DNA from: Clostridia bacterium
GTDB taxonomy: Bacteria; Bacillota; Peptococcia; DRI-13; SV3-B141
Direction: 5' to 3'
DNA length: 38,528 bases
Assembly (NCBI GenBank): GCA_018433015.1
Contig: JAHDSB010000033.1
Location: 1-38,528 of the forward strand
The notes under the pieces are model-generated. The model had not been told where the DNA came from. It made no database searches and saw only the letters and a program-made list of their open reading frames with translations. This document shows positions 7,514-14,445 of the stretch, piece by piece (the stretch's first letter is position 1; each line of letters begins with the position of its first letter). The position numbers were made by a program, and so were the translations under genes.

Positions 7514-7543
7514 TTGACGTGATAGCCATAAAAAGAGTATAAT
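7514..7543 (+). promoter_or_regulatory. Sigma-A promoter of the ECF/radical-SAM leader
   Basis: -35 TTGACG at 7514-7519, 18-bp spacer, perfect -10 TATAAT at 7538-7543. It begins the base after the DHHW stop codon; transcription should start near 7550. Confidence 0.75.
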
Positions 7544-7549
7544 TTTCTT

Positions 7550-7779
7550 AGTAATAGTCAGTTTTAATAAAAAAGTTCAAATCAATCAAGGATATCCTTG
7601 ATTAATTTGTCCATATAAAAAGTAAGACCTTGCAAAAAAGATTTATCTAATTTGCGAAGGGATTAGTGCATATTAGGATCCATAAACTATGTTAACTTTC
7701 CTTTGGCAAAGGAAAGTTTTTTTATTGCCTTATTTTTAGATGAATTATCAGTTACATAAATTAAGGGGGAATTATTTAA
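7550..7779 (+). ncRNA. Structured 5' leader, candidate riboswitch or attenuator
   Basis: About 230 nt lie between the predicted transcription start and the ATG at 7779. The leader contains a perfect 20-base palindrome (7584-7603), a stem pairing 7628-7636 with 7651-7660 (one bulge), CTAAT/ATTAG and CATA/TATG alternatives, and a terminator at 7694-7723. CGAAGG at 7655-7660 can pair with CCTTTG at 7700-7705 in the left terminator arm, so an antiterminator is possible. I recognise none of the conserved cores of the TPP, FMN, SAM, THF, preQ1 or T-box classes. The regulatory role is inferred from geometry. Confidence 0.5.
7694..7723 (+). terminator. Strong terminator inside the leader
   Basis: A perfect 11-bp stem (7694-7704 with 7708-7718), 3-nt loop and continuous T tract to 7723. 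It lies downstream of its own promoter and about 55 bp upstream of the ECF gene, so it should act as a conditional attenuator, not as the end of the DHHW operon. Confidence 0.85.
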
Positions 7780-8336
7780 TGACAAATAATGATAATGTTA
7801 AAAAGCTCGTGCAAACATCCGTATTTTTAGCTTTTGCAATTATACTGCAGCTCATTGGTAGAACTTTTGTGCAAATCAATCCTTTATTAATAGGCCCGTT
7901 GATTTCTACAATTATTCTACTTACCACCTATGTTTGTGGATTAACTTTTGGAATATTGATAAGTATACTTATCCCTGTGTTTGCAATCCCTTTAGGAGCT
8001 TTAGCAGCACCTTTAATACCTTTTGCACCGTTTATAGTGATTGGCAATATAGTTTTCGCAGCTGGTTTTGCCATTGTCATGAAAAAAGGAAGGCTTGGTT
8101 TATACCTGGGAGTGCTATTGGGAACTTTAGTGAAAGTTTTATTCTTAAGTTTTTCAGCTACGAAATTAATATATCTACTTAAATTAGGCATCTCACCCCA
8201 AAGTGCAAAAATGATAGGTATGGCCTTTACAACACCACAAATCATCATATCATTGCTGGGAGGCGCCGTAGCTATTGTAGCTATAGAAATAATGAGGAAA
8301 AGGAAAATATCCAATATAGATATGAATTCTATATAA
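7779..8336 (+). CDS. ECF transporter S component, substrate unknown
   Basis: 185 residues, almost all hydrophobic, with five or six predicted membrane helices and a short positively charged tail. The size, the alanine-rich first helix and the G/P-rich central segment (PLGALAAPLIPFAPFIVIGN) fit substrate-binding S components of energy-coupling-factor vitamin or precursor importers. No ATPase or EcfT gene is nearby, so it would share a central energising module. The start is ATG 7779, 10 bases after AAGGGGG; a longer ATG at 7740 lacks a ribosome-binding site. It sits 28 bp before a radical SAM gene and behind a dedicated leader, implying import of a substrate, precursor or product of that enzyme. 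The family is fairly secure; the ligand is unknown. Confidence 0.8.
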   Translation: MTNNDNVKKLVQTSVFLAFAIILQLIGRTFVQINPLLIGPLISTIILLTTYVCGLTFGILISILIPVFAIPLGALAAPLIPFAPFIVIGNIVFAAGFAIVMKKGRLGLYLGVLLGTLVKVLFLSFSATKLIYLLKLGISPQSAKMIGMAFTTPQIIISLLGGAVAIVAIEIMRKRKISNIDMNSI

Positions 8337-8364
8337 CTACACCAATGAAAAGAGGTATCAATTA

Positions 8365-9348
8365 ATGACCATTCAAACAAAAACAGAAATACTGGAAATA
8401 TTAAATATGCCAAATGAAGAATTCAATAATTCTATAAAAAAACGGGCTAAAGAAATACATATACAAAATAATGATAATAGTGTTGATGTTATAGCCCTAT
8501 TTGGATATGACAATATCTGCAAAAACCAGTGCTTATATTGTGGGATGAGAGCAGGTAATTCCAAATTAAAAAGATATAGAATAGGCCTTGAAGATGCCAA
8601 GAAAACTGAAGATGCTGTAAAAAAATTAGGACTAAATAAAATATTTTTAATTTCTGGAGAAGATCCTAAATATGATTTTAAAGATATTTTATCTATGGTT
8701 GAATACGGTAAAGAATTAGGGCTATTTGTAAGCATGGCAGCCGGGGAACTTAGTTTTGAAAAGTATCAAGCTTTAGAGGCTGCGGGGTTAGATGAATATG
8801 TGTTAAAATTTGAAACCTCAGATAAAGATATGTTTGCTAAAATAAAACCTTCTACTACTTTTGCAAATAGAATAAAATGTATAAAGTATATAAAAAATAG
8901 CAAGATGAAGTTGGCTTCGGGAAATATTATTGGATTGCCTCAGCAAACATTAGAACAGGTTGCTGATGATATTATGTTAATGAAAGAACTTGAGATAAGC
9001 TGGGCACCAATTATTCCTTATATGCCGGTTCCCAATACACCTCTGGCCCAGGAAGGTGGCAGAGGAAGCATAGAAACTACTTTGAAAGAAATATCCATCT
9101 TGAGAATAATGATGCCCCAAGTAAATATTACAGCTCAGCAACCAAGTGAAGATCCTAAGAGTAGCTTGGCAGATGTGCAAGGAAATCTAAATGCTCTAAG
9201 CGCTGGTGCTAATATGCTATTTGTGGAAATGTTACCCCCAGCTTTGATTAAAGATTTCAATGTAATAAATAATAGAATGATTGAAGGCGTGGAAAAGGTA
9301 AATAAATTAGTTGAAATGTCTGAGATGAAATGGAACAAAATTAAATAA
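8365..9348 (+). CDS. Radical SAM enzyme of the BioB/HydE/PylB group
   Basis: 327 residues. The [4Fe-4S]/SAM motif CxxxCxxC lies at C52, C56 and C59 (NICKNQCLYCGMR), followed by the GEDP motif and a TIM-barrel pattern (ETSDKDMFAKI, GNIIGLPQQT, PYMPVPNTPLA). The spacing and blocks such as YCGMRAGNSKLKRYR and ISGEDPK most resemble HydE and PylB. I see no HydF, HydG or pyl genes here, and no C-terminal cysteine cluster. AAAAGAGG precedes ATG 8365. Pairing with an ECF S component suggests a cofactor- or vitamin-related conversion, possibly modification of an imported precursor. HydE, a methylornithine-synthase-like enzyme or a new activity are all possible. The fold and cluster are secure; the reaction is unknown. 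Confidence 0.88.
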   Translation: MTIQTKTEILEILNMPNEEFNNSIKKRAKEIHIQNNDNSVDVIALFGYDNICKNQCLYCGMRAGNSKLKRYRIGLEDAKKTEDAVKKLGLNKIFLISGEDPKYDFKDILSMVEYGKELGLFVSMAAGELSFEKYQALEAAGLDEYVLKFETSDKDMFAKIKPSTTFANRIKCIKYIKNSKMKLASGNIIGLPQQTLEQVADDIMLMKELEISWAPIIPYMPVPNTPLAQEGGRGSIETTLKEISILRIMMPQVNITAQQPSEDPKSSLADVQGNLNALSAGANMLFVEMLPPALIKDFNVINNRMIEGVEKVNKLVEMSEMKWNKIK

Positions 9349-9357
9349 AAAATAGTT

Positions 9358-9754
9358 AAGAACCGCTAGTTAAAGAAAATGAAAAAGTAGTATTAGATGG
9401 TGATTTTGAAAAAGTAATGGTAGATACTAACGTAGATGTAGATGTAACAGAAAATACAAAAATAAAAGAAATGGACATAAGCTCTGAAGCAAAAGGAGCT
9501 AAAGTAAATATGGGGCAGGGCAACTATAAATAACTTAGTAATAGATACGCAGGCTGTAATTACTGGAGACGGAAAAATCATAAAATCTCCACTCTGATAA
9601 TACGGGGAGTAGCTTGCTGGCAAGTAATGATGATTATGTCGATCTTTATGGGTGCTTAATTATGGATTTAGATCCAGGTACCTATTATGTAGTGGTAGAA
9701 AATTTTGACGCCCCTGATACTCTTTATTGTCATCTAGAAGTTACCAAAATTTAA
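9358..9754 (+). pseudogene. Decayed remnant of a secreted/surface protein gene
   Basis: Two protein-like stretches lie in different frames with no start codon. The first (about 9358-9532) reads ...KVVLDGDFEKVMVDT... and resembles the beta-rich repeats of S-layer-type surface proteins before a stop. A further fragment (LVIDTQAVITGDGKIIKSP) follows in a shifted frame. The second stretch (about 9578-9754) reads LLASNDDYVDLYG and then LDPGTYYVVVENF and ends ...LEVTKI-stop. This is the pattern of a bacterial pre-peptidase C-terminal (PPC) domain. Frame breaks and missing joins show a deletion-ridden pseudogene, or pieces of two genes. It accounts for the otherwise gene-free interval after the radical SAM gene. 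Confidence 0.6.
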
Positions 9755-9773
9755 GCATAGTACATTAACGATA

Positions 9774-14144: not shown

Positions 14145-14445
14145 AAAAAATAAAAACTCCTCCATCCCTAAAGGGACGAAGGAGTATCTCGCGGTACCAC
14201 CCTAATTAGTGCCTGACGGCACTCTCTCATGCAGGACAAAACTTCTATCCTGTTCCTCTGTAACGTGAGGACACGTTTACCTCTAATGTGAAGTTAAATA
14301 ACTTCATTTCTCAAGGTCAAAAACTCGAGGGCTGCATTCAACATGGTTTGTTACCGGACTCTCACCGTTTTCCGACTCGCTTAAAACATAACATGCCTAC
14401 TCTTCCCTGTCATAGTTTTTACAATAATTACTATATGATAGGTTT
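14145..14445 (-). ncRNA. T-box riboswitch leader of the lrp-aminotransferase operon
   Basis: The invariant T-box AGGGTGGTACCGCG lies at 14203-14190, followed by a 13-bp terminator (14173-14185 with 14156-14168) and TTTTTATTTTTT. Upstream are the stem I landmarks AGTA, AGCGAG and GGTGAGAG, and the specifier-loop segment GAATGCAGCC around 14340-14330. The standard GAA-NNN-purine geometry gives UGC (Cys) at 14336-14334; one base further reads GCA (Ala). Uncharged tRNA should stabilise the antiterminator and switch on the operon. Confidence 0.93.

Follow-up and report, generated by a model that had tools for sequence, protein, structure and literature searches.

The window, that is, the whole 38,528-nucleotide stretch of DNA analysed, contains a compact plus-strand unit in which a promoter and a leader precede two genes. 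The sigma-70-type promoter (TTGACG-18-TATAAT, positions 7514-7543) matches the consensus at 11 of 12 positions and is followed by a structured leader that includes a terminator (7574-7724). The first gene (7779-8336) encodes a 185-residue S component of an ECF transporter and the second (8365-9348) a 327-residue HydE-like radical SAM enzyme with a CxxxCxxC motif at residues 52-59. The start of the S component was set by its ribosome-binding site: position 7779, with the site AAGGGGG and the same start in C. aestuarii, is preferable to 7740. The S component is a membrane protein that matches PF12822 barely above the cut-off (E 1.3e-7), and the match of its 85% identical homologue in C. aestuarii (locus L041) is likewise weak yet above the cut-off; the predicted structure has a pLDDT of only 52. 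Behind the enzyme lies a coding-like plus-strand stretch with a broken frame (9350-9770), possibly the remnant of a cell-surface protein gene. Elsewhere in the window, on the minus strand, a T-box leader (14169-14422, 126 bits) is located upstream of genes for an Lrp/AsnC-type regulator and an aminotransferase.

A block spanning positions 7566-9333 is 80.5% identical in nucleotide sequence to L041, with sharp borders and unrelated flanks, and a promoter (TTGACA-17-TATAAT) is found at the equivalent place in C. aestuarii. Thus, the promoter, leader, S component and enzyme constitute a conserved unit, in agreement with the original prediction of a self-contained unit with its own promoter. Comparison of the two sequences suggests that the unit has probably been transferred horizontally between distant Clostridia.

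The enzyme matches the radical SAM family PF04055 (E 9e-16), and its best NCBIfam model is HydE (TIGR03956), for which its 175 bits fall short of the cut-off of 254.6. Its full-length relatives score 167-202 bits with this model, compared with 441-547 bits for the canonical HydE proteins of the same genomes. PylB, BioB and HydG-ThiH, which belong with the enzyme to a common radical SAM group, give lower scores (110, 103 and 46-61 bits, respectively), all far under their cut-offs. With all scores below the family cut-offs, identities as canonical HydE, PylB or BioB were rejected. In a tree of 30 HydE-family sequences with HydG and BioB, the enzyme and ten relatives form a separate clade (95/95) outside the supported HydE clade (98/85). 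The phylogeny supports assignment of the enzyme to a HydE-like sister clade that is distinct from HydE, PylB and BioB. The pairing of an S component with an enzyme of the HydE group was therefore correctly recognized at the outset. Firm clustering within HydE, if the genome also encoded HydF and HydG, had been named as evidence against a new function; the window's genome does encode HydE, HydF and HydG, but the enzyme falls beside the HydE clade rather than inside it.

The predicted structure of the enzyme (pLDDT 86.5) matches that of T. maritima HydE (3CIW, 7O1O) with a TM-score of 0.90, and the matches to PylB (0.82) and BioB (0.81 or less) are poorer. The likeness to HydE also includes the CxxxCxxC, SGED, GE and other motifs, the same regulatory RNA, and TM1266 and HydF as neighbours. 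In contrast, the sister-clade enzyme scores 80 bits below the HydE cut-off, is tied to importers and has a remodelled pocket. The HydE-invariant residues Q106, R154, M223, G225, G227, T267 and the next threonine (7o1p chain index) are replaced by I, E, W, P, I, Q and Q, respectively. These positions surround the barrel and are themselves invariant in the paralogue clade; in TmHydE, some of them are presumably in contact with complex B, the product of HydG. Because pocket positions of the HydE family have changed, the substrate of the paralogue may differ from that of HydE.

The movement of the block as a unit between distant Clostridia and the presence of a canonical HydE in the window's genome would also fit a degraded or redundant HydE duplicate that has no special function and is carried on a mobile block. 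This is highly improbable, as the reading frame is intact, C52, C56 and C59 of the SAM motif are invariant, 87 positions are invariant in 11 relatives, and the promoter, the RNA switch and the pairing with an importer are conserved.

The leader comprises a hairpin P1 (CAAAU...AUUUG, 7578-7609), a conserved core P2 (CCUNNNRNAAAAG...UCURAU...RAGG, 7628-7661), a hairpin P3 (GCAUA...UAUGU, 7668-7692) that is clear only in the window and L041, and an intrinsic terminator with its U-tract (7694-7724; hairpin 7694-7718). Folding stability is characterized by z = -2.9 for the leader and z = -5.2 for hairpin 1 by itself. The 3' strand of P2 (7655-7662) has an alternative partner at 7698-7705, with which it would form an antiterminator duplex of -12.3 kcal/mol, a value equalled by 0.6% of shuffles. 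The structured leader with an attenuator that was originally proposed is thus upheld. Compensatory changes between the window and L041 leaders occur in P1, P2 and P3. In an alignment of eight leaders, both partners have changed at 11 of the 19 pairs, P1 alone having nine such two-sided pair changes, and 0 of 500 shuffles were as good. A terminator follows the RNA in 11/11 leaders. The antiterminator, formed by the P2 3' strand and the next bases with the 5' arm of the terminator, lies at or below the 5% level of shuffles in nine of these; the antiterminators of L041 and the L328 hydG leader are no better than chance by this measure.

An Rfam search with the leader gave no significant match, and the gathering score of no known riboswitch or leader was reached; a known riboswitch, T-box or PyrR leader was rejected on this basis. 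Nor did the literature searched describe such an RNA element for hydrogenase maturation genes. As in transcription-attenuating riboswitches, a covarying aptamer-like domain is combined with an expression platform in which antiterminator and terminator are mutually exclusive, whereas the lack of an Rfam match and the link to maturation of the H-cluster set the leader apart from them. The best reading is that of an undescribed riboswitch-like attenuator common to the unit and the canonical maturation genes, and such an RNA may sense a metabolite.

The link to maturation genes comes from searches for the same RNA elsewhere. A covariance model derived from two sequences, the window and L041 leaders, with the terminator omitted, was run on 80 whole genomes. 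The three best matches outside the training sequences immediately precede hydG of C. aestuarii (75 bits), a hydE-hydG locus in G121 (41 bits) and the TM1266-hydE-hydF-SsuABC operon of the window's own genome (39 bits); a weaker match precedes TM1266-hydE-hydG in G012 (27 bits). Besides one antisense artefact, the unit and the hyd operon account for all matches in the window's genome. With refined models, the RNA was also found in G295, in G378, at two sites in G385 and at one more site in G121; models untrained on G378 recovered the G378 copy (80 and 61 bits). The leader was originally described as private to the unit. That description no longer holds, since the RNA is found immediately upstream of hydG, hydE or TM1266-hydE/F/G, including a TM1266-hydE-hydF operon, in seven genomes, the window's and six others.

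The core pattern CCUN3RNAAAAG..UCURAU..RGG occurred only at maturation genes and the unit in the 2.93 Mb examined, with zero matches in reversed control sequences. Most loci in this set had been chosen for hyd genes or enzyme relatives, and the 80-genome search is thus the less biased test. The RNA is lineage-restricted: of 100 HydG and HydE neighbourhoods, 3 carry it, and it is absent from the ABC-type operons. Weak matches to the leader model at L295, L264, L296 and L297 and on antisense strands lack the core pattern and were not counted; the L295 match (2032-2130), which lies in front of a gene resembling TasA/camelysin and scores 40 bits with R2 and 32 with R3, is probably due to chance. 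Taken together, membership of the unit in a regulon with canonical maturation genes is well supported.

A control other than metabolite sensing is possible, though not likely: the leader may be a binding site for a protein, most simply for a small TM1266-family protein that would bind P2 and control both its own operon and the unit. TM1266 is the first gene after the RNA in G000, G012, G121 (hydF site), G295, G378 and G385, is also encoded in G120, and belongs to a family named as a putative regulator of the hydrogenase system (TIGR03959). To our knowledge, however, RNA-binding activity has not been ascribed to this family, and TM1266 also heads operons devoid of the leader RNA, namely L289, L315 and the ABC-type operons. 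The riboswitch-like attenuator remains the preferred reading of the leader.

Two canonical hyd operons resemble the unit in that a solute importer is encoded together with maturation genes behind the leader RNA. In the window's genome (C19; L037:4320-8005), SsuABC-like importer genes lie directly behind canonical hydF in an operon that starts with the leader RNA, and the SsuA-family binding protein is above the TIGR01728 cut-off. In C. aestuarii, similar genes lie directly behind hydG (L288:2949-4001), again in an operon starting with the RNA. These operons differ from the unit in that their importer is of the SsuA/NMT1 ABC type and their HydE is canonical, whereas the unit has an ECF S component.

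A species-wide scan found relatives of the enzyme in twelve further genomes (45-79% identity), giving 13 carriers in total. An S component stands beside the enzyme in only one of the twelve, at L041. The proposed association of the two genes is therefore preserved as a conserved block in C. aestuarii, but extends to just two genomes among the 13. At most other loci the enzyme is encoded behind an NMT1/SsuA-like ABC importer; altogether an importer adjoins the enzyme at 10/13 loci, the exceptions being L042, L049 and L050. An AGCS symporter in L042 was rejected as a partner, since the two genes are separated by a hairpin resembling a terminator and by a distinct promoter. TM1266 heads the importer-enzyme operon in L043-L045 (above the cut-off in L043 and L044), and HydF is downstream of the enzyme in L046 (above the cut-off) and in L051, where its gene is broken by the contig end. 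The view that no known pathway genes accompany the pair must consequently be revised: relatives of the enzyme adjoin TM1266 and hydF, and the RNA is common to hyd operons. [FeFe]-hydrogenases are encoded in 13/13 carriers, most with intact H-cluster motifs. The TSCS motif of the hydrogenases, in which a serine replaces the proton-relay cysteine, was dropped as an indication of another cofactor because it also occurs in genomes with full HydEFG.

The paralogue might instead make or remodel another, vitamin-like cofactor, the RNA being shared through a metabolite common to both pathways. The changed HydE-invariant pocket residues, the vitamin-importer fold of the S component and the full HydEFG set of the window's genome are consistent with this proposal. 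It is nevertheless quite unlikely in view of the adjacency of TM1266 and HydF in separate lineages, the hydrogenases of every carrier, and the finding that, the artefact aside, RNA matches in the window's genome are limited to the hyd operon and the unit. The sharing of the RNA by hydG, hydE, hydF and TM1266 operons and the genes adjoining the enzyme's relatives argue instead that the unit belongs to H-cluster maturation.

H-cluster assembly involves HydG, HydE and HydF together with the glycine cleavage system. HydG makes the Fe(CO)2(CN)(Cys) synthon, which HydE converts to the diiron [2Fe]E; installation of the bridge falls to HydF and aminomethyl-lipoyl-H-protein (PMC12752695). Our preferred reading, which we consider fairly probable, is that the unit is a side unit of this pathway that combines precursor import with conversion by the HydE paralogue, under an attenuator shared with the canonical genes. 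Formation of the P2 helix would allow the terminator to form and transcription would stop; otherwise, the 3' strand of P2 would pair with the 5' arm of the terminator and transcription would continue. The S component may bring in a small precursor by way of a shared ECF module, by analogy with the SsuABC-like importers of the canonical hyd operons. The paralogue would then use radical SAM chemistry to turn this precursor into a component of the [2Fe] subcluster, or to load such a component, which would be handed to HydF and the hydrogenase. The unit would not be needed for known maturation, because the window's genome already has HydE, HydF and HydG. Accordingly, of the undescribed salvage or remodelling reaction first proposed, import plus remodelling probably survives, while the pathway appears to be H-cluster maturation rather than that of an unknown vitamin. 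The parts are ordinary and the combination is new: a HydE paralogue and an ECF importer linked by an undescribed attenuator RNA to H-cluster genes. The literature searched described neither an RNA switch nor an import step for H-cluster assembly. Through the shared attenuator RNA, the signal sensed by the cell becomes directly accessible to study.

The occurrence of the importer-tied paralogue in genomes lacking HydG bears on the old puzzle of [FeFe]-hydrogenases without maturases. Such genomes have been noted (PMC3226654), and hydG is missing in acetogens (PMC9431212). Complete HydEFG is encoded in the genomes of the window, C. aestuarii and L042. Neither HydG nor canonical HydE is found in the other 10 of the 13 carriers; eight of these also lack HydF, and most are metagenome bins, although three correspond to genomes listed as 99-100% complete. 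The background sample comprised 399 genomes of the phylum, of which 298 had a strong [FeFe]-hydrogenase match, and HydG was undetected in 81 of the latter, including the single-contig genomes G145, G146, G232, G272, G336, G390, G395 and G401. HydG is absent more often from carriers (10/13) than from other hydrogenase genomes (80/296), with a Fisher p of 0.0004 that ignores relatedness and bin quality.

These figures, and the in vitro bypass of HydG and HydE by synthetic [2Fe]E (PMC12752695), raise the possibility that the paralogue and its importer fully replace both enzymes, so that hydrogenases mature without HydG from an H-cluster precursor imported from outside. We regard full replacement as rather unlikely. 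Nearly all of the 81 genomes without detected HydG also lack the paralogue, which indicates that other routes or missed genes exist and that the paralogue cannot be a general answer to missing HydG; the additional loss of HydF and the prevalence of bins among the HydG-less carriers weigh in the same direction. A more elaborate version, also unlikely, holds that in some Clostridia an external H-cluster precursor is taken up by ECF or ABC importers and readied by the paralogue, independently of HydG, for use by HydF or the hydrogenase, and that a new class of riboswitch co-ordinates this route with hydEFG by sensing an H-cluster intermediate. The SBP/ABC importer was rejected as a marker of HydG absence; it is not specific, because genomes with and without HydG contribute about equally to its strongest orthologues.

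Further observations concern the surroundings of these genes. A small gene of about 96-113 codons without a Pfam or NCBIfam match lies directly behind hydG in L288 (2696-3034) and L293 (3298-3585), and may encode a new maturation accessory protein. Operons with TM1266 and an NMT1-like ABC importer, and without a HydE-like gene, are found at L261:6504-9195 and L262:6449-9039. At L276:4177-10581, genes for a Crp-type regulator and an NMT1-like importer lie beside a putative hydrogenase-like gene and a gene for a SpoIIE-like phosphatase.
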